64,000 nucleotides of DNA from Polyangium sp. 15x6 (GTDB lineage: Bacteria; Myxococcota_A; Polyangia; Polyangiales; Polyangiaceae). The translations under genes were made by a program, and so were the position numbers. The DNA is taken from NCBI RefSeq assembly GCF_029960785.1, contig NZ_JASBQE010000040.1, positions 1-64,000 on the forward strand. Direction: 5' to 3'. Each line of letters begins with the position of its first letter. Positions within the stretch are counted from its first letter, which is position 1. The notes beneath the pieces were generated by a model that was not told the origin of the DNA, ran no database searches, and worked only from the letters and a program-made list of their open reading frames with translations. Positions 1-31,615 of this stretch are shown here, piece after piece.

Positions 1-246
1 GACGGCCGAGAAACCGCGCGATGCGCGGTTTCTCGGACGGGCCCGGGGCAAGACCACGAGCGGCGTTGCCAGCCGAGGCGGTTTTGACTGGCAAGGTCGT
101 CGCCGGTCTTGACCTGGCCCGTTCGATGAACTGCGCATCGCGCAGTTCATCGACCACGAGTCCAGCGCTTGCGCTGGTCCGGGGTGCAGGGGGCGGACAG
201 CCCCCTGCTGGGGTCCGGGGTGAAACCCCGGCACGCCGTCCTGGGC
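1..246. repeat. Composite inverted-repeat element, copy 1 (left end cut by window)
   Basis: This noncoding stretch holds a perfect 14-bp stem with a 3-nt loop at 6-36 (core AAACCGCGC), a second perfect 14-bp stem at 123-153 built on GAACTGCGC, and a short hairpin around 161-176. Between the stems lie the words GGCAAGACCA and GGTCTTGACCTGG, and the right arm is rich in GGGG/CCCC blocks. The same architecture recurs near 5.24-5.55 kb and 31.26-31.62 kb, so this is a dispersed family, probably a non-autonomous mobile repeat (BIME/MITE-like). A reading frame of the following gene runs back through it but shows no protein-like content. Confidence 0.7.
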
Positions 247-3892: not shown

Positions 3893-4264
3893 CGAGCCTC
3901 GGACATGGTGCGTCGGAGGTCGACGGTACCAGGTCGGAGGCACGAACATCGTGCAGCGGGGCCGACGGAGGTTGTTCGGGCGCGTAACAAGCGTCATCGG
4001 GGGACGTCGGCAGGTGTTGCGGCGCGCGAACGAGTGTCGTCGGCGGTCGACGGAGGTTGTTCGGGCGCGTAACAAGCGTCATCGGGGGACGTCGGCAGGT
4101 GTTGCGGCGCGCGAACGAGTGTCGTCGGCGGCCGACGGGGGATTCCGTGCTCACGAACGAGGAGCATCGGCGGTCGACGAAGGCCGATCAGAGGTCGGGT
4201 ACGCCGACGTCGGGCGCGATGACGTCATGTCGCGCCGCCGAACAGGTGTCGTCGGCGCTCGACG
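3893..4264. repeat. Degenerate tandem repeat, 42/43-bp units with an 85-bp higher-order unit
   Basis: Nine consecutive units end in a GTCGGNGGNCGACGG-like block. Unit boundaries near 3927, 3969, 4011, 4054, 4096, 4139, 4181 and 4225 give steps of 42, 42, 43, 42, 43, 42, 44 and 40 bp. Two 85-bp blocks (3961-4045 and 4046-4130) are nearly identical, differing at only about one position. The region lies between two convergent genes. It stays open in minus-strand frames with a 14-residue periodicity, but this follows from the repeat period and I do not call a protein. Confidence 0.85.
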
Positions 4265-5227: not shown

Positions 5228-5236
5228 CTGGGAGGC

Positions 5237-5551
5237 GTCTCGCTGGGGCGTTGCCCCAGGCCCCACCAGGGGCTATCCGCCCCTGGACCCGGACCAGCGC
5301 AAGCGCTGGACTCGGGGTCGATGAACTGCGCGATGCGCAGTTCACCGAACAGGCCCGAGGCAAGACCGGCGGGCGACCCTGCCAATCAAGGCAGCCGCGC
5401 TGACGTTTCAAGCGGCAACGCCTTCCCACGGGCCCGTTGGAAGAACTGCGCGGAGCGCAGTTCTTCCACCCTCGGTCCAGGCCGTGCCTGGTCCGGGTCG
5501 AGGGGCGGACAGCCCCCGCGGGGTCCGGGGCAGAGCCCCGGCGCGGCGCCC
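5237..5551. repeat. Composite inverted-repeat element, copy 2 (complete)
   Basis: Two ~105-bp arms face each other around a ~90-bp centre. The left arm carries a GC-block region and a GAACTGCGCGATGCGCAGTTC hairpin core near 5324. The right arm carries a GAACTGCGC-type hairpin near 5447 followed by the GC-block region in the opposite orientation. The centre has the GGCAAGACC word shared with the other copies. The reverse complement of the right arm of the copy at 31.6 kb closely matches the left arm here. It fills the gap between the esterase start and the aminotransferase stop. Confidence 0.75.
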
Positions 5552-8502: not shown

Positions 8503-9660
8503 TCATGGACTACCACATACCTCGTTCGAGTCCACGCTCGAAACCCCGCCGGCCTTGCATTGCGCGCGATAGCAGTAGACCGTCGCGGACGAATAGGCGC
8601 CGTCGTCGTGCTGCTCGACCGTGCTACCTCCGAGCGTGTAGACGAGCGAGAACGCACCGCCGCCCTCGTTGCGGTAAAGGAGGATCTTGTCGCAGCCCGT
8701 CGCCGTCCAGGTGACGTGGAGCGCGTCGCCCATCGGGATCACCTGGTCGAGCACGGGAGGGAGCGGCGGGGGAGGCGCGTCGTACGCGCGCGGCCACACC
8801 AATCGACCCGGCGCCCCCTCCGTGCCCTGCTCGGTATGGCATTTGTTGCAATCTCCGTCGGTCTGGGGCGCATTCATGGAGCGCGTGACCCCATTCGCGA
8901 CGAGCCGCGCCGAATAAGGAATGGGCACGCCCGCCACGATGGCGCTCGACATGAAGTTGCCCGCGGCGTTCGGCGTGAGCGTCATCGTCACCTTGCCCAT
9001 CGCGTCGAGGATCTCGACCTTCGCCCCGGGAGGCGGCGGGCTCATGCAGAGGTCCTTCTCGTGGAACGCGGGAAAGACCGTGCCCATGAAGAAATAATTG
9101 AAGTCCGATGCCTGGGTCTTGTGACACGCGCGGCACGCGAGGCCCGGGTTCATCTGCGCCGTCGGGGTCGCGTTCGTATCCCACGTCTTGCCGCTCGCGC
9201 ACGTGGTCTCCGCCGGTTTTTCGGGAATGGCCCCGCACGTCCCCGCCGGCATGCCCGCCGCCACCCACTGCTCGAACACCGCCATCTGTTTCGGAGACGC
9301 GGGTGGTTCCGATAAAGGAGGCATCGGCGCCACCGCCAAATGCATTCGTTCGAGGCTCCGTTCACCGACGGTCTTGCCGGAGTCCCCCGAGAGAGCAAGG
9401 AAATCGTGCCGCGTGAGGAGAGGCATGGGCGCCCCTGCCGCGACAGGGGACGCGTGGCAGCTCACGCAGATCTCTTCGAGGACCTCGCGCACGTCGCATG
9501 GAAGCTCGTTCGGTCCCAGGTCGACGCCGCCGTCCGGCGCCTGGCCCGTCGAGGACGCGCCCTGAGGGGCATCGTCGGAAGGAGGGCCTTCCGACGTGCA
9601 ACCGAAGGCGGACACCAGAAGGAAAGGGAGCAGCGAAAAAGCCGTTTTTCGGGCGCGCAT
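8503..9660 (-). CDS. Three-heme c-type cytochrome lipoprotein with C-terminal FN3-like domain
   Basis: 385 aa from the ATG at 9660, chosen because it opens a lipoprotein signal with lipobox Cys21 (SAFGC). Three CXXCH heme sites are visible: CVSCH (65-69), CRACH (176-180) and CNKCH (271-275). After a proline-rich hinge near residue 300, the remaining ~85 residues (LHVTWTATGCDKILLYRNE..) look like a fibronectin III/Ig-like domain. The protein should sit on the periplasmic face or outer membrane as an electron carrier. It lies 24 bp upstream of the GMC flavoprotein and 70 bp downstream of a tiny lipoprotein gene, all leftward. I know of no exact named family. Confidence 0.82.
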   Translation of the reverse strand: MRARKTAFSLLPFLLVSAFGCTSEGPPSDDAPQGASSTGQAPDGGVDLGPNELPCDVREVLEEICVSCHASPVAAGAPMPLLTRHDFLALSGDSGKTVGERSLERMHLAVAPMPPLSEPPASPKQMAVFEQWVAAGMPAGTCGAIPEKPAETTCASGKTWDTNATPTAQMNPGLACRACHKTQASDFNYFFMGTVFPAFHEKDLCMSPPPPGAKVEILDAMGKVTMTLTPNAAGNFMSSAIVAGVPIPYSARLVANGVTRSMNAPQTDGDCNKCHTEQGTEGAPGRLVWPRAYDAPPPPLPPVLDQVIPMGDALHVTWTATGCDKILLYRNEGGGAFSLVYTLGGSTVEQHDDGAYSSATVYCYRAQCKAGGVSSVDSNEVCGSP

Positions 9661-9730
9661 GGGCTCGAGTATCGCCGACGACGCGCCGCTCGGCCATGCG
9701 GCGGATTGTCGCATGGCGCGCCCGTCAGCC

Positions 9731-9997
9731 TCATTGAGGAAGGGCGAGGCCGGGCGGAATGAACTCGCAGGGCAGTTTTCCGTTCGGTGGCCTCGGCAAT
9801 GCATCCACCTCGTCGATACACGAGACGAGCGCCGTGGGCTCCTCGCCGCCCGCGCCGCCGCTCCCGCCGGTGGAGCTGGAGGAGGAGGAGCCACCGCCTG
9901 CGCCGCTCGAAGACGAGGTGCTCGTATTCTGCGAGGGATCGTCGGAGCACCCCCACAGACAGGCCACCGCGGTGGCCAAGAAGAGCCAACGTTTCAT
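9731..9997 (-). CDS. Small Ser/Gly-rich lipoprotein
   Basis: 88 aa. A clear lipoprotein signal ends in CLWGC, followed by a low-complexity Ser/Gly linker of about 35 residues and a short C-terminal region containing two cysteines (SCIDEV and LPCEF) that could pair. It sits 16 bp downstream of the YcnI-like gene and 70 bp upstream of the heme lipoprotein gene on the same strand. Function unknown; the linker suggests a surface-exposed tether or small accessory subunit. Confidence 0.7.
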   Translation of the reverse strand: MKRWLFLATAVACLWGCSDDPSQNTSTSSSSGAGGGSSSSSSTGGSGGAGGEEPTALVSCIDEVDALPRPPNGKLPCEFIPPGLALPQ

Positions 9998-10013: not shown

Positions 10014-10712
10014 CTAGTAACGAACCCAGATTTCGTCGTTCGCCTTCACCCCGTCCGCGGACAGCAGGTTGACGCCCTGCGTGCCCTTGATGAGGTCGAC
10101 GGTGGCGTCATTGAAGCTGTAGGCATCCGAGCCGCGCCAGACGATGAGCGCATCCTTGAAGAAGATGCTCAGGTCCGGGATATCGGCGGGCACGGTGTAC
10201 TTGTTCCAGCCCGGGAGGTGATCGGGGACGATGGCCTGCGCGGCGGCGGGCTCGCCCATCTCGCCAGGCAGGGCCACCCATTCGGCGTACGAGAGGGTCG
10301 CGTCGGCCGCGCGGCAGACCTGATGAATCTTGTAATAGATCGAGGTGAACGGCGTGCTCGGCACCCGCGCTCGGAATGCGATCTTGTAATAGTTCGTGTC
10401 ACCCGGCAGGGCGTCCGCGTCGTCCTTCTGCCACGTCAAGCTCGTCACGAGGGCGGGGTCGGCTGCGTCATAGGTGAGCGAGGTCTTGCCGAAGTCGCTC
10501 CCCATCGGGCGCACCGAGGTCATGCCCTTGGGGATGTCCACGGTGAGCGCATACGTATCCGAACCCTCGCAGCCGTGACCGACGCCGAGCTCGACGACGA
10601 TGGTCTTTCCGGCGACGGCCGTCGGGCTCACCGCGCTGATATGGGCCTGCGCGGAGGCGCTCGCGGCGAGCACGCCCGCAATGGCCGAGAAGCTGAGCAA
10701 TTTGTTCTTCAT
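10014..10712 (-). CDS. YcnI-like (DUF1775) secreted copper-site protein
   Basis: About 232 aa. ATG 10712 is preferred because the AGGAG at its 5' side is 9 nt away; ATG 10718 would leave only 3 nt. A signal peptide ends at AQA, so the mature protein begins with His (HISAVSP), as in YcnI-type domains where the N-terminal His is a Cu(II) ligand. The GHGCEGSDTYALTVDIPKG segment matches the DUF1775 core. It is longer than the single domain, with an extra C-terminal region of unknown role. Family members are linked to copper handling. It heads the leftward run through the heme lipoprotein and GMC oxidase genes. Confidence 0.82.
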   Translation of the reverse strand: MKNKLLSFSAIAGVLAASASAQAHISAVSPTAVAGKTIVVELGVGHGCEGSDTYALTVDIPKGMTSVRPMGSDFGKTSLTYDAADPALVTSLTWQKDDADALPGDTNYYKIAFRARVPSTPFTSIYYKIHQVCRAADATLSYAEWVALPGEMGEPAAAQAIVPDHLPGWNKYTVPADIPDLSIFFKDALIVWRGSDAYSFNDATVDLIKGTQGVNLLSADGVKANDEIWVRY

Positions 10713-11479: not shown

Positions 11480-11509
11480 TTGACACCGTGCCCGATCCGA
11501 CCATAGGGT
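11480..11509 (+). promoter_or_regulatory. nrdA: Candidate promoter of the riboswitch-nrdAB transcript
   Basis: A consensus -35 TTGACA (11480-11485) is followed after 18 bp by TAGGGT, a weak -10 element. It overlaps the 5' edge of the riboswitch, so the exact transcription start relative to the first aptamer helix is uncertain. Confidence 0.45.
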
Positions 11510-11703
11510 GCGTCCCGTGCTGGTGGTTGGGCTTCGGCCCGGCCTTAAAATGGGAACCCGGTGGAAATCCGGGACTGCCCCGCAGCGGTAAGCGAGAACG
11601 AAATTCGCCACATGCACTGGGATCTTCGGGTCCTGGGAAGCGGCGGACGTAGGAATCCGGCAATCGCCGAAGCGCTCGTGAGTCCGAAGACCTGCCCGCA
11701 CCC
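11506..11703 (+). promoter_or_regulatory. Adenosylcobalamin (B12) riboswitch
   Basis: The leader contains the hallmark cobalamin aptamer words in order: GGGAA, CCGGTGGAAATCCGGGACTG, CCCCGCAGCGGTAA and the B12-box region GAGTCCGAAGACCTGCC. GGGTGCG (11506-11512) and CGCACCC (11697-11703) can close the outer helix P1. It lies upstream of class I ribonucleotide reductase genes on the same strand. In Streptomyces a riboswitch of this class represses the B12-independent class I enzyme when cobalamin is available, and the same logic is expected here. This predicts a B12-dependent class II reductase (nrdJ) elsewhere in the genome. Confidence 0.95.
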
Positions 11704-11897
11704 GACCCCGGGAGACATCCGGAGTCGGTTCGACCTGGGAGCCTCGTGGGAAGGCGGGAAGGTCCGAGCGGCGCACCCTGGTGCGCTCGTCCCGGTCTCG
11801 ACCTGTCCCCTCGCGCTGGTGTTCCAGTTGCCCGCGGGGGCGAAGGTCGGTCCGAGGGCTCCCAACGTTCCCAGCGCGGGCGCGCCTCGGCTGGCTT

Positions 11898-14471: not shown

Positions 14472-15490
14472 GCGCCGCTGCCCGTCCCGCCCGCCTGCTC
14501 GACCCGGGCCTTTGCCTGACGCTGCGGCCGATGACGTACCCGAAATTCTTCGAGATGTACCGCGCGGCCATCAAGAACACGTGGACCGTCGAGGAGGTCG
14601 ATTTCTCGACCGACGTCGGCGACCTCAAGAAAAAGATGAGCGACGCCGAGCGACACCTCGTGCAGCGCCTCGTCGCCTTCTTCGCGACCGGCGATTCCAT
14701 CGTCGCGAACAACGTGGTCCTGAACCTGTACAAGCACATCAACGCGCCCGAGGCGCGGATGTACCTGTCGCGACAGCTCTACGAGGAGGCGCTCCACGTG
14801 CAGTTCTATCTGACGCTCCTCGACACGTACGTCCCCGACCCGGAGGATCGTCACCGCGCGTTCGCCGCGGTCGAGAACATCCCCTCCATCCGGAAGAAGG
14901 CAGCGTTCTGCATGAAATGGCTCGACTCCACGCGCGCGCTCGAGCAGCTCGATTCGCGTGCGCAGCGGCGAGCCTTCCTCCTGAACCTCATTTGCTTCGC
15001 CGCTTGCATCGAGGGGCTCTTCTTCTTCGGCGCGTTTGCGTACGTATATTTCCTTCGCTCCCGCGGGTTGCTCCACGGGCTCGCGGCGGGGACCAACTGG
15101 GTGTTCCGTGACGAGAGCGCGCACATGGCGTTCGCCTTCGAGGTGGTGAAGACGGTGCGGCGCGAGGAGCCGGAGCTCTTCGACGACGCGCTGTGCAGCG
15201 CGGTGAACGACATGCTCGAGGAGGCGATCGAATGCGAGATGCAGTTCGCCGAGGACCTGCTCGGGGATGGCATCGCCGGAATGTCGACGCGCGACGTCCG
15301 TCGCTACCTCGAGTTCTGCGCGGATCAGCGTCTCACGACGCTGGAGCTCCCGAAGCGTTACAGGACGAAAAACCCGTTCTCGTTCATGGATCTCCAGGAC
15401 GTGCAGGAGGTCACCAATTTCTTCGAGCGGCGCGTGTCGGCTTACCAGGTCGGCGTGTCCGGGGAGGTCGTGCTCGATGCCGCGTTCTGA
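14468..15490 (+). CDS. nrdB: Class I ribonucleoside-diphosphate reductase, beta subunit
   Basis: 340 aa ferritin-like radical protein. Carboxylate/His metal ligands are visible: Glu107 and His110 in YEEALHVQFY, then IEGLFFFGAF and RDESAHM with the second Glu and Glu/His pair. The radical position, four residues after His110, is Tyr114, so this is a tyrosyl-radical enzyme rather than the Phe-bearing chlamydial class Ic type. It starts inside the nrdA stop (ATGA overlap), which implies translational coupling and shared riboswitch control. Needs oxygen for cofactor assembly. Confidence 0.96.
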   Translation: MSAAARPARLLDPGLCLTLRPMTYPKFFEMYRAAIKNTWTVEEVDFSTDVGDLKKKMSDAERHLVQRLVAFFATGDSIVANNVVLNLYKHINAPEARMYLSRQLYEEALHVQFYLTLLDTYVPDPEDRHRAFAAVENIPSIRKKAAFCMKWLDSTRALEQLDSRAQRRAFLLNLICFAACIEGLFFFGAFAYVYFLRSRGLLHGLAAGTNWVFRDESAHMAFAFEVVKTVRREEPELFDDALCSAVNDMLEEAIECEMQFAEDLLGDGIAGMSTRDVRRYLEFCADQRLTTLELPKRYRTKNPFSFMDLQDVQEVTNFFERRVSAYQVGVSGEVVLDAAF

Positions 15491-15544
15491 CGCTCGAATG
15501 CCCTCGAAGGCCGCCAGAATGGCGGGGACAGCGCCCGCCGTGTT

Positions 15545-15965
15545 CCCTTCGCCCTCCGAGCTTGCCTACCACGCAGCCAGGAACGTTCCCCCCGTCCTCC
15601 GAGCTTGTCTCTGACGCAGGGGGAAACGTTCCCCCCTCTCTTGTAGCGTCGCGATGACGCAGGGGGGAACGTTCCCCCCGTCTTCCCAGCTTGTCTCTGA
15701 CGCAGGGGGGAACGTTCCCCTCTCTCATGTAGCGTCGCGAGGATGCACCGCGGAACGTTCCCCCCGTCCTCCGAGCTTGTCTCTGACGCAGGGGGGAACG
15801 TTCCTCCCTCTCTTGTAGCTTGTCTCTGACGCAGGGGGGAACGTTCCCCCCTCTCATGTAGCTTGTCTCTGACGCAGGGGGGAACGTTCCCCGCTCTCAT
15901 GTAGCGTCGTGATGACGCACTGCGAAACGTTCCCCCTCTCTTGGAGCGCCGCGATGACCTGCGCG
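15545..15965. repeat. 43-bp tandem array of GGGGGAACGTTCCCCC palindromes
   Basis: Nine AACGTT cores begin at 15582, 15625, 15668, 15711, 15754, 15797, 15840, 15883 and 15926: every step is exactly 43 bp. The best units carry an 18-bp perfect palindrome of six G, AACGTT and six C. Spacers alternate between a GTCCTCCGAGCTTGTCTCTG type and a TCTCTTGTAGCGTCGCGATG type for the first units (86-bp higher-order period), then become hybrids. Degenerate units flank both ends. The array lies between nrdB and the amine oxidase gene, both rightward. All minus-strand frames are open across it, an expected side effect of a 43-bp period, and I do not call a gene. Confidence 0.95.
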
Positions 15966-16026
15966 CGCATGCAAGCCCGTGACATGGGCCCGCCTGGGCG
16001 CCAGCTATGCCGCTGGGAGGGCGCTG

Positions 16027-17670
16027 ATGGCACGGACACCACTCTTGCGATCGCTGGAGAAGCTGGCCTCGGAGCACCGCGCGGCGCGCGCGCGAGGGCT
16101 CACCCCCGCTGCGCTGCGCGAGGAGCGCATGGCCGCTCGCGAACGGGATGCCCGCCGCGGGATTTCCCTCGATCGCCGCCGCTTCCTCGGCGCCACGGCC
16201 GTGGGGGCCTTGACCCTCGCGCTTCCGCGCGCGCTCCGCGCCGCGGATTCTCCAACCATCGCCATCGTCGGCGGCGGCGTCGCCGGCCTGACCTGCGCCC
16301 TCGCGCTGCGCGATCGCGGCCTCTCGGCCACCGTGTACGAGGCCTCCGGCCGCATCGGCGGCCGCATGTTCTCGAACACCACCTCCTGGGACGCGGGTCA
16401 AGTGAGCGAGTGGTGCGGTGAGCTCATCGATAGCAACAACCGCACCCTGTTCGCCCTCGCCCAACGATTCGGCCTGACGATGGACAGCCTGGAGGGCCCA
16501 CAGCCGTCCGGCCTGGAGAATACGTATTTCTTCGACGGCCGCTATTACCCCGTCGCCGAGGCCGAGCGCGATTTTGCGCATGTCTATCCCGCTCTCCTCA
16601 CGGATCTGGGCGCCGCGGGCGAGATCACCACCTACGACCACGCGACACCCGCGGGGCGCGCGCTCGATCGAATGAGCGTCTACGACTGGATCGCCTCGAG
16701 GGTCCCGGGCGGGCACGCCTCGCCGCTCGGGCAGTTGCTCGACGTGGCTTACGTCATCGAATGGGGCGCCGATTCGCGGGATCAGTCCGCCCTGAACCTC
16801 GTCTACCTGCTCGGCCACCAGCCCGAGCCCGAGCATTTCTCGATGTTCGGCGAGTCCGACGAGGCGTATCACATCAAGGGCGGCAACCAGCAGATCCCCC
16901 TGGCCATCGCCGAGGCGCTCGGTCCGGACGTGATCGAGCGCGGGCACCGGCTCCTCCGCCTGCGCGAGAGCCCGGCGGGGAGGCAGATCCTCACGTTTCA
17001 GCGAGGCTCGGGCACGATCGACGTCGTGGCCGACTGGGTCGTCCTCGCTATCCCGTTCGCCGTATTGCGCACCATCGACCTCGGGGACGCCGGTTTCGAC
17101 GCGCGCAAGCGCCTCGCGATCGAGCAGCTCGGCCGGGCGCACAATGGCAAGCTTCACCTCCAGTTTTCGCGCCGCTACTGGCGCGACGAGGGCCCCTGGC
17201 CAGGCAGGAGCGATGGGTCGACCTATGCCGATACCGGCTATCAGAACACCTGGGAGGTGAGCCGCGCCCAGCCGGGCGAGCCCGGGATCCTCGTCCTGTA
17301 CACCGGCGGGGACGTGACGGACGCGATGTCGACGCGAAAGCCTTTCGCCACCATCAAGGACGCGGGCGTCCTCGCGGACGCGCGCGCGGGGCTCGGCTGG
17401 CTGGAGAGGGTCCTGCCGGGAGGATTCACGCACTGGAACGGGAAAGCGACGCAATCGATGCCGCACTTGAACCCGCTCTACGAGGCGTCGTATTCGTATT
17501 ATCGGGTGGGTCAGCGGGTCCTGTTCGGCGGCCACGAGGCGGCTCGCCAGGGCGGGGTGCTCTTCTGCGGCGAGCACACATCGCTCGATTTCCAGGGGCA
17601 CATGGAGGGCGCTGCCTCCCAGGGCGCGCGCGCGGCGGAGGAGCTCGCGCGGCTCGTGAAGGGGAGGTGA
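16027..17670 (+). CDS. Tat-exported flavin amine oxidase (MAO/L-amino-acid-oxidase-like)
   Basis: 547 aa from the ATG at 16027, with GGGAGG 6 nt upstream. A twin-arginine leader (DRRRFLGATAVGALTLALPRALRA, residues ~49-72) follows a charged N-terminal extension. The FAD Rossmann motif IAIVGGGVAGLTCALAL is followed by VYEASGRIGGRMFS, typical of monoamine-oxidase-like flavoproteins. The C terminus has VLFCGEHTSLDFQGHMEGAASQGARAAEEL, the second FAD-contact region. It should oxidise an amine or L-amino acid to imine with O2, in the periplasm and in folded form. Substrate unassigned. Faces no obvious partner; the lodA-like oxidase downstream is also an amino-group oxidase type. Confidence 0.9.
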   Translation: MARTPLLRSLEKLASEHRAARARGLTPAALREERMAARERDARRGISLDRRRFLGATAVGALTLALPRALRAADSPTIAIVGGGVAGLTCALALRDRGLSATVYEASGRIGGRMFSNTTSWDAGQVSEWCGELIDSNNRTLFALAQRFGLTMDSLEGPQPSGLENTYFFDGRYYPVAEAERDFAHVYPALLTDLGAAGEITTYDHATPAGRALDRMSVYDWIASRVPGGHASPLGQLLDVAYVIEWGADSRDQSALNLVYLLGHQPEPEHFSMFGESDEAYHIKGGNQQIPLAIAEALGPDVIERGHRLLRLRESPAGRQILTFQRGSGTIDVVADWVVLAIPFAVLRTIDLGDAGFDARKRLAIEQLGRAHNGKLHLQFSRRYWRDEGPWPGRSDGSTYADTGYQNTWEVSRAQPGEPGILVLYTGGDVTDAMSTRKPFATIKDAGVLADARAGLGWLERVLPGGFTHWNGKATQSMPHLNPLYEASYSYYRVGQRVLFGGHEAARQGGVLFCGEHTSLDFQGHMEGAASQGARAAEELARLVKGR

Positions 17671-21712: not shown

Positions 21713-23191
21713 GTGAGGAGAAGAACACCATCGAATCTACCGCAGCCGCGGCTCCGCCACCTGCTGGCGGCGCTGCTGTCGATCCTGCTCGTCGCCGTCG
21801 TCGGAACTTCGTTTGCCGCCGACCACAACGACGGCAGCAACTTCAAGGAACATCCGGACTGGGACATCTCCGACTTCTTCATCTTTCCGAGGGTGGATGC
21901 GCATCAGCAAAAGCGTCTCTCGCTGATCCTGAGCGTCCATCCATACGCTCCCCCGACGGCGCTCTTCAGTGATGTATTGACGTACAGCTTCCGCATGCGC
22001 GCCGTCAAAGGCTTTCAGAAATCTCCCTTCAAGGCTCTCGTATCCGACGAGGAATTTCGGATCGACTGCCGCGTCACGGGCACGGCCGCCCCGCAGGTCC
22101 TGAACTGCGAGCTTTTGCGCCTGCAGGCCAAGGGGAAGGCGCCGGAGCCGATCATGAAGGCCACCGTGAACACGGGGGACTCGGGGGGCGGCTCGAACCC
22201 TGACTTCAAGATCTTCGGAGGGCCCAGGGCCGATCAGTTGTTCACGGACCGGGCACGGGTGAGGATGCCGGTCTGGCGTGACACCGATCTGAGCTCCGCG
22301 GAGGAATGGCCGGGGGTCAACACGTTCGACGGAAAGAACGTCCTCAGTATCGTCGTCGACCTGAATCCCGAGAAGTTTTTGAAGGCGGATACGCATCTTC
22401 TCGCGGCGGTCGCCGAGGCCTCGTACATGGATAAGGGAGAGATGCGCCGGGTCGATCGCATGGGGCGGGTGGAGATCACCGTCTTCCTCGTTCGCGATAA
22501 CGAGACCAAGGATCTCTGGAATGCAGATGATGCGTTCTCCCTCAAGCCCGAGAACGTAGGTAAGTATCGGGAGAAGCTGAATGCGGGACTGCACCGGCTG
22601 GATGGGTTCGAGATGCTCGAGCTCGACGCGCCCGTCATCAGTGTATTCGACTGGGACAACCCTCACCCCTGGGTCGACCTCCTGATGGATGATTTTCTCA
22701 TCGTCAATGTGGAGCAGCCGACGAAGCCCTCCAGTGATGCCAATGGATATCTAGGCATCGAAATGGGAGAATTCCGCGGGGGGCCGGCGCCGATCGTCGG
22801 TGGCCGTCTCCCCAACGAAGACGTCATCGAGACCACGCTGACGGTGTTCATCAACGGCCTCGACCGCCTGAAAGGACCGAAGAGGGGCGTCGGCGTTTCC
22901 AGGCCGGCCCGCGCGACGGTGGATGAATTCCCGTTCGTGCCGCCTCCGTTCGCGCCGCCTTCCGAAGCGGCCGGCGAACCGATGAAGGCGAATGCCGGTC
23001 CGCCTCCCAAAGCGGCCGGCGAACCGATGAAAGCGAATGCCGGTCCGCCTTCCGAAGCAGCCGGCGAATCGATGAAAGGGAATGCCTGCGGATGTGGCGT
23101 GCGCGGGTCACCGGCTACCGGTGGGCTCTGGGTCGGGCTGGGGGTGCTGCTCGCGGTGCGGCGCCGACGCGCGCGCCTCACACCAGGCTGA
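21713..23191 (+). CDS. DUF4331 secreted protein with MYXO-CTERM-type surface anchor
   Basis: About 492 aa from the GTG at 21713 (GGGAGGG, 5-nt spacer). A signal peptide ends near GTSFA. The mature start ADHNDGSNFKEHPDWDISDFF is the DUF4331 signature. The domain runs to about residue 395. A Pro-rich region with three 15-residue repeats (SEAAGEPMKANAG) precedes a C-terminal tail with a CGC motif, a hydrophobic stretch (GGLWVGLGVLLAV) and RRRRAR, which is the layout of MYXO-CTERM sorting signals that anchor proteins to the myxobacterial surface. DUF4331 has no firmly assigned biochemical role. It lies 122 bp after the LodB-like gene and may be cotranscribed. Confidence 0.87.
   Translation: MRRRTPSNLPQPRLRHLLAALLSILLVAVVGTSFAADHNDGSNFKEHPDWDISDFFIFPRVDAHQQKRLSLILSVHPYAPPTALFSDVLTYSFRMRAVKGFQKSPFKALVSDEEFRIDCRVTGTAAPQVLNCELLRLQAKGKAPEPIMKATVNTGDSGGGSNPDFKIFGGPRADQLFTDRARVRMPVWRDTDLSSAEEWPGVNTFDGKNVLSIVVDLNPEKFLKADTHLLAAVAEASYMDKGEMRRVDRMGRVEITVFLVRDNETKDLWNADDAFSLKPENVGKYREKLNAGLHRLDGFEMLELDAPVISVFDWDNPHPWVDLLMDDFLIVNVEQPTKPSSDANGYLGIEMGEFRGGPAPIVGGRLPNEDVIETTLTVFINGLDRLKGPKRGVGVSRPARATVDEFPFVPPPFAPPSEAAGEPMKANAGPPPKAAGEPMKANAGPPSEAAGESMKGNACGCGVRGSPATGGLWVGLGVLLAVRRRRARLTPG
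22961..23095 (+). repeat. In-frame 45-bp coding repeat (three copies)
   Basis: Units begin at 22961, 23006 and 23051, each encoding a 15-residue Ser/Pro-Glu-Ala-Ala-Gly-Glu-Pro-Met-Lys-Ala-Asn-Ala-Gly-Pro-Pro repeat in the DUF4331 protein. The nucleotide sequences are nearly identical, so the expansion is recent. It forms the stalk before the surface anchor and is likely length-variable between strains. Confidence 0.85.
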
Positions 23192-31261: not shown

Positions 31262-31615
31262 GCAACCGTTGCGCCGGGGCGCTGCCCCGGGCCCCGCGGG
31301 GGCTGTTCGCCCCTCGACCCGAACCAGGGCAAGCCCTGGACCATTTGGGAAGAACTGCGCGATGCGCAGTTCTTCCACAGGCCGGTGGCAAGACCAGGAA
31401 GGTGCGTTGCACGCTGGTGACGGGCACGTTGCCTGTTGAATCGTCAGCGCCGCGGTCTTGATGGGCAGGGTCGTCGTTGGTCTTGACCTGGCCTGTTCGA
31501 TGAACTGCGCATCGCGCAGTTCATCGACCCCGGGTCCAGCGCTTGCGCTGGTCCGGGTCCAGGGGCGGATAGCCCCGGTGGGGCCTGGGGCAAAGCCCCA
31601 GCGCAGCGCCTGCCG
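31262..31615. repeat. Composite inverted-repeat element, copy 3 (complete)
   Basis: Left arm: GC-block region, then a GAACTGCGCGATGCGCAGTTC hairpin core near 31352. Right arm: a GAACTGCGCATCGCGCAGTTC core near 31502, then a CCAGCGCTTGCGCTGG hairpin and GC blocks. The reverse complement of the right arm matches the left arm over ~105 bp with scattered mismatches. The centre carries GGCAAGACCA and GGTCTTGACCTGG, as in copy 1. It starts 14 bp after the sedolisin stop. Confidence 0.78.

Follow-up and report, generated by a model that had tools for sequence, protein, structure and literature searches.

A 43-bp-step palindrome array downstream of nrdB in Polyangium sp. 15x6 belongs to a class of arrays with conserved spacing and may be an operator lattice

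In the window (the whole 64,000-nucleotide stretch of the Polyangium sp. 15x6 genome analysed here), nine AACGTT cores follow one another between nrdB and a flavin amine oxidase gene. Each of the eight steps between them measures exactly 43 bp, with no indel from 15582 to 15926, as the first-pass annotation had stated (Table 1). The array is a real and unusual feature, and it belongs to a class of arrays found at other loci of this genome and in related genomes. We put at about 0.5 the probability that it is a lattice of helically phased operator sites, bound by a dimeric DNA-binding protein.

Table 1. The array, its units and the two flanking genes (positions in the window)
Feature	Positions	Strand	Remarks
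nrdB, ribonucleotide reductase small chain	14519..15490	+	relatives' identity ends at the stop codon
Whole 43-bp-step array, type 1	15521..15957	+	nine intact cores and one degenerate 5' unit
Unit 1	15564..15606	+	core AACGTT at 15582
Unit 2	15607..15649	+	core at 15625
Unit 3	15650..15692	+	core at 15668; full GGGGGGAACGTTCCCCCC
Unit 4	15693..15735	+	core at 15711
Unit 5	15736..15778	+	core at 15754
Unit 6	15779..15821	+	core at 15797
Unit 7	15822..15864	+	core at 15840; full GGGGGGAACGTTCCCCCC
Unit 8	15865..15907	+	core at 15883
Unit 9	15908..15950	+	core at 15926; 3' end degenerate
Flavin amine oxidase gene, directly 3' of the array	15979..17670	+	start may be 16045

The hexamer AACGTT occurs 16 times in the window, and nine of these occurrences are in the array; upstream of the nine cores lies a degenerate tenth unit with its core position at 15539. 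A search with GGGGAACGTTCCCC at up to three mismatches gave 12 matches in the window, nine of them inside the array, compared to a mean of 5.46 and a maximum of 11 in 100 dinucleotide-preserving shuffles of the whole window. The palindromic core proposed in the first-pass annotation holds for its AACGTT centre, which is present in all nine units, but the exact 18-mer GGGGGGAACGTTCCCCCC is found in the third and seventh units only. The periods given by TRF for the array were 43, 86 and 172 bp. Neighbouring units have 28, 30, 29, 25, 27, 41, 41 and 20 of their 43 bases in common, and units two apart have 33, 40, 36, 39, 27, 39 and 21. The 86-bp alternation that had been described for the first units is real, since units two apart are there more alike than neighbours; the last units break the pattern. 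With only 20 to 41 of 43 bases identical between neighbours, the 43-bp step has outlasted much base change.

We searched 183 genomes of the order for pairs of GAACGTTC at any step from 28 to 58 bp, and 21 genomes had at least one such pair. In Polyangium, 36 of the 37 pairs were at 43 bp (five of them the window's own), and the remaining one, in genome G148, was at 44 bp. Copies of the core in the genus thus keep the step, which is the outcome of the search that the first-pass annotation had proposed. One Polyangium genome, G151, had no GAACGTTC pair at 28-58 bp. Outside Polyangium, G068 had one pair at 43 bp and G070 had five at 42 bp. Thirteen more genomes had one or two pairs each, scattered from 30 to 58 bp (one at 43 bp in G147 and one at 42 bp in G005), as chance would give. 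Within the genome of Polyangium sp. 15x6, arrays of the core also lie on contigs C80, C221, C228, C235 and C42. All 23 core pairs of this genome are at 43 bp, including the five of the window, compared to three pairs of a reversed control pattern. This control, the core reversed (CTTGCAAG), gave five close pairs in G149 and eight in G073; further palindromes besides this core may form arrays too. Another form of AACGTT repeat was observed in a Myxococcales MAG (G168), where dense GAACGTTCGAGG-like repeats recur at about 12 bp (L200, 6411-7445).

The step was also followed in twelve other, hand-chosen arrays with degenerate GGAACGTTCC cores, a count that is, like the open-step pair search, free of the selection bias of ungapped lags. 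Exact multiples of 43 made up 58 of the 66 steps; seven were off by 1-2 bases, and one of 521 (L064) runs across a core-free stretch. Random indels between the cores of related arrays, named in the first-pass annotation as the pattern that would contradict it, are therefore not what we found for most steps, although length variants exist: a double step of 87 bp occurs in L028, and steps of 42/43 or of 21/22/64/65 are mixed in two G149 arrays. Unit sequences are quite different between arrays, and yet the step is common to them.

Alignment of 29 array segments to their own consensus, with costly gaps and trimmed ends, gave 843 mismatches and 2 indels, a count that is biased to few indels because the arrays were selected by ungapped lag identity. 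For aligned noncoding DNA of the same genomes there were 88 gaps per 1069 substitutions, in a baseline that pools ten overlapping locus pairs and whose counts are not independent. The costly-gap alignment replaced a wrap-around alignment with cheap gaps, in which 28 segments had 972 mismatches and 53 gap events, some of these lying where an array begins or ends.

A contiguous megabase of G149 (C1:1-1000000) was picked regardless of arrays. The commonest repeat lags not divisible by three were here 43 and 86 (seven and five segments, respectively, compared to 0 to 2 for the other lags of this kind), and six array loci underlie them. In samples of G149, G000 and G070 pooled to 1.8 Mb, the best common base period was 21.3 bp with a resultant of 0.76, compared to 0.57 for the largest resultant among 300 random sets. 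Since this test counts multiples from one array repeatedly, it was redone with one lag per array: 16 of 22 lags fell within 1.5 bp of a multiple of 21.3 bp, and eight of the 22 were exactly 43 bp. Before this test we removed 111 of the 133 clusters, all of whose lags were divisible by three; their periods suggest that most of them are coding repeats. A distance of 21.3 bp is about two helical turns, and 43 bp about four.

In 400 kb of contigs C209 and C198 of the window's own genome we saw no lag-43 array; two arrays there had a spacing of about 21.2-21.3 bp and one had 22/44. The samples of G147 and G181, 200 kb from each genome, likewise showed no 43-bp array; two of their seven arrays were near a multiple of 21.3 bp. 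Both genomes were labelled as lacking the protein family AAP (see below), a label that is putative for G181, which belongs to another family; G147 is not among the ten AAP-bearing genomes of 108 in the family, yet it has a lone GAACGTTC pair at 43 bp.

Compared to column shuffles, dyad symmetry of the unit consensus was significant (p<0.05) for 23 of the 29 rows, 17 of which reached p<0.005; for the window array p was 0.002. The symmetry was not significant in six of the 29 rows, including the AAP-linked L005 (p 0.13) and L072 (p 0.08). These rows remained from 32 after L028, L066 and L067, with fewer than three full units left, had been dropped, and they count L044, L064 and one G149 locus twice each. 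A dyad that extends over the full unit entails a second dyad 21.5 bp away, which is plain in some arrays, e.g. in L034, where it reads CTCCTCCCC A GGGGAGGA.

Such units are inverted repeats and could be folded on either strand, so that the array might be transcribed into hairpins and act as RNA. We hold this explanation to be less likely, and indeed improbable. Units around AACGTT were compared in two sets, 54 distinct ones of G type and 30 of GA type. At most positions, the bases that face each other across the dyad were complementary about as often as independent columns predict, or less often, with 0 to 3 compensatory units each. The exceptions, which would suit an RNA, were G-type pairs 18 bases from the axis (0.63 compared to 0.41 expected) and 19 bases from it (0.67 compared to 0.49), with nine compensatory units at the latter position. 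On the other hand, Rfam at gathering scores had no match at the array (its sole match in the window was a cobalamin riboswitch elsewhere), and an RNA has no need of a fixed helical step. On balance, the dyad-symmetric consensuses together with the few compensatory changes appear to favour symmetric recognition of double-stranded DNA by dimers over a maintained RNA hairpin.

The surroundings of the array differ among relatives. NrdB is 94-97% identical in G149, G151 and G148 (none was found by a NrdB search in G150 and G152). None of these three genomes has an array directly after nrdB, and their DNA past the stop codon is unrelated to the window. As the identity stops at the nrdB stop codon, the window array and, with it, the amine oxidase and LodA-type genes stand at a synteny break; the three relatives lack the array at this place, so that it is not essential in them. 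A search of Pfam with eight window genes around the array gave other domains for seven and none for one; no ParA, ParB, Rep or Cas family was among them. Around 34 distinct Polyangium arrays with neighbours called in this analysis, the flanking genes have all orientations, convergent ones included.

Several other repeats and elements were also observed. About 5 kb downstream of nrdB in G149 there is a 43-bp array of another type (L069, 4312-4537), related in sequence to an array at G149 C1:749170. The riboswitch of the window (11504-11713, RF00174, 105 bits) is upstream of nrdA, and by this sequence match the ribonucleotide reductase operon is predicted to be B12-controlled. A second intergenic array of the window, at 3922-4191 between convergent genes, consists of long imperfect palindromes with an 85-bp period, in agreement with 4 × 21.3 bp. 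Another repeat, about 320 bp long and with inverted ends (window 1-241, 5232-5551 and 31266-31611; L070 9916-10250), looks like a MITE; it is dispersed over many intergenic places of the genome and also present directly after nrdB in G151. At 22955-23086, a 45-bp tandem repeat in a DUF4331 gene encodes a repeated 15-residue stretch near the C terminus.

The commonest family of neighbours was a protein of 257 amino acids and no known function, which starts just 3' of the C80 array and which we named AAP, for array-associated protein. Its relatives are the nearest called gene (at L064 the second nearest) at 10 of the 34 arrays, and one more array, in L065, has a broken copy as its neighbour. At this broken copy (9504-9858), the type 1 array has eroded cores but retains several 43-bp steps. 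The arrays found 5' of AAP genes belong to three sequence types. With the type 3 array of C228 as a query in the genus, six further AAP genes, counted among the 39 AAP places listed, had a match on the 5' side at 183-202 bp from the matched AAP stretch. Type 1 arrays beside AAP have a common 105-bp flank in several species. In G068, which belongs to another genus, the AAP is 52% identical and has an array with GGGGGGAACGT(T/C)CCC cores on its 5' side; one more array of this type is found elsewhere in that genome. Two loci, L005 (3505-3535) and L063 (about 10144-10165), have a stem-loop in the DNA that separates the type 1 array from AAP; its arms differ in the two species and still pair, and it could be a terminator or an attenuator.

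An array is known, always 5' of AAP, at 18 of the 39 AAP loci, the analysis having covered the upstream DNA of 19; since most of these loci were fetched for their array, this proportion is no rate (the C228 pair, L072, was not chosen by its array). One AAP fragment whose surroundings were read (L034, near 16276) had no lag-43 array. Conversely, none of the six arrays in the array-blind megabase of G149 was beside AAP, and none of the GA-type places listed was beside an AAP place. We found no AAP homologue in the window. Judged by its sequence, the window array belongs, as an orphan, to the type 1 that is linked to AAP elsewhere: its best match is the C80 array beside AAP (80% over 416 bp), followed by one on C16 of G150 (74%).

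Within the family, AAP was detected in 10 of 108 genomes, namely in all six of Polyangium and in G068, G070, G109 and G130. A sample of the phylum (377 genomes) had it in six members of the same family, with one more marginal match that contains a stop (G248). AAP had no match in Pfam at E up to 5, nothing informative in NCBIfam, PHROGs, PADLOC or the PDB sequences, and was not found in plasmid and phage collections; for the G068 protein, one PHROGs family without a known function came up at E 0.21. The predicted structure is an all-helical bundle (mean pLDDT 88, pTM 0.60). Foldseek gave no match to it at E up to 0.001, and the best VIA-align Z, 9.6 over 110 residues, was to general helical bundles, for which such values tell little. 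The protein is near neutral (pI 5.3-7.9). With no basic charge and no known DNA-binding fold, AAP is disfavoured as the direct binder of the arrays; the model, as far as it goes, does not suggest an obvious fold of this kind.

The position of AAP raises the possibility that the array is a cis-regulatory operator, which would control AAP where the two are linked and, in the window, the amine oxidase/LodA cluster. We regard this as somewhat unlikely. It would explain why the array is 5' of AAP in 18 of 18 linked cases, at 183-202 bp in the six type 3 cases placed by position, and the strand of the window array relative to its downstream gene is that of the C80 array relative to AAP. However, several arrays lie between convergent genes and have no promoter side, so promoter control cannot be the general role. 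Ordinary operators also generally have fewer than nine units.

Another explanation is that the arrays are selfish or neutral repeats like REP/BIME, which copy and disperse, with a unit length set by copying and no function for the host. Dispersed relatives were indeed found for three array types, and one G149 array has two further copies with 95% and 91% identity; these near-identical copies imply copying, and part of the uniformity may be due to common descent. The 86-bp doublets within arrays and the absence directly after nrdB in three relatives also agree with such an origin. In RAYT systems, palindromes lie beside the gene of a lineage-specific protein, and orphan copies occur elsewhere. 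The likeness to REP/BIME-RAYT is in the dispersed intergenic palindromes, some of them in arrays beside a lineage-specific protein family and others orphans. Unlike REP/BIME, the arrays have a four-turn step and long tandem runs, and AAP, the neighbour at 10 of 34 arrays, has no Pfam match and thus no recognisable transposase domain; the scan of AAP (E up to 5) recognised no HUH/Y1 transposase. Copying alone would hardly give sequence-unrelated types the 43-bp step in common or make lags cluster on 21.3 bp, and type 1 arrays by AAP keep their 105-bp flank in several species. We therefore consider selfish repeats an unlikely explanation, though one that deserves weight.

Most known tandem palindrome arrays of bacteria are plasmid centromeres or replication iterons. 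The iterons of plasmid replication origins are tandem sites about two helical turns apart, and the arrays resemble them in this spacing. Unlike iterons, they are palindromic and present at many loci, and no Rep was among the eight window genes tested. Short palindromic repeats at regular spacing also recall CRISPR, which we rejected: the spacers recur within and between arrays, the period is 43, and the eight window genes include no Cas. A coding repeat was rejected as well, because 43 is not a multiple of 3.

The closest known design is sopC of the F plasmid. As described in PMC6238139, sopC is built of twelve repeats of 43 bp that contain 16-bp inverted repeats and to which ParB_F binds; it is like the arrays in its tandem 43-bp repeats, a short palindrome in each and about ten units. 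The term 'parS-like' of the first-pass annotation is apt for this geometry and fails for the partners, as there is no ParA or ParB in the eight genes and no ParB_N gene on the contig. A true ParABS centromere, i.e. a homologue of parS or sopC, perhaps from an integrated plasmid, is highly improbable. The search for ParB_N genes in the genome found two, on C184 and C129, neither on the window's contig; a type 3 array is 31 kb from the one on C184, which is a point in favour. Unlike sopC, the Polyangium arrays are many, dispersed and chromosomal, their dyads differ, and they have a half-unit of about 21.3 bp; the window array is missing at the same place in three relatives, and AAP has no plasmid match. 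Membership in ParABS was rejected: tandem 43-bp repeats with an inverted repeat are present, but no ParA or ParB gene was found among the eight window genes around the array. In the titles and abstract openings of the literature on 43-bp, tandem or palindromic repeats in myxobacteria, Polyangium and Sorangium, and on helically phased arrays, the class was not described.

The operator lattice that we prefer could work as follows. Each 43-bp unit, about four turns long, has AACGTT and its G/C flanks as the main dyad and, about 21.5 bp from it, a second one that is weaker. Protein dimers would occupy the dyads along one DNA face and touch their neighbours along the lattice, which would produce a cooperative nucleoprotein complex like that of SopB on sopC of the F plasmid. 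The simplest common cause of the geometry and the symmetry would be one dimeric protein, or a related set, with dyads two helical turns apart; the class comprises many arrays whose dyad sequences differ and whose geometry is the same. Arrays before AAP genes might be autoregulatory or partner sites, and the others orphans. The orphan of the window, between nrdB and the amine oxidase cluster, could set the expression of the cluster or the local topology. The cooperative binder on one DNA face that the first-pass annotation had envisaged fits the kept step, the 21.3-bp lags, the dyads and the little covariation. The statements about sequence are firm; that a protein binds, that it does so cooperatively, which protein it is and what the array does, we infer.

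A wider scheme may be considered, although it is unlikely. The arrays might form a chromosome-wide geometric code of many sequence-unrelated dyad lattices in each genome, with a dyad every two turns and a unit every four; each lattice type would have its own reader, a member of the AAP family or a co-evolving partner. Together they would be a new organiser of chromatin or gene islands in Polyangium and a few relatives.

In one genus, arrays of this kind are present at many loci (six in the sampled megabase of G149), their spacing is kept while the sequence changes, and some of them precede a protein family, AAP, that is absent from every library consulted. By its sequence features, the class points to an undescribed DNA-binding scaffold in Polyangium and its relatives. 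If dimers bind the lattices, Polyangium would lend itself to the study of how helical spacing gives rise to cooperative nucleoprotein assembly, and also of a chromosome-organising system that evolves in sequence and not in geometry.
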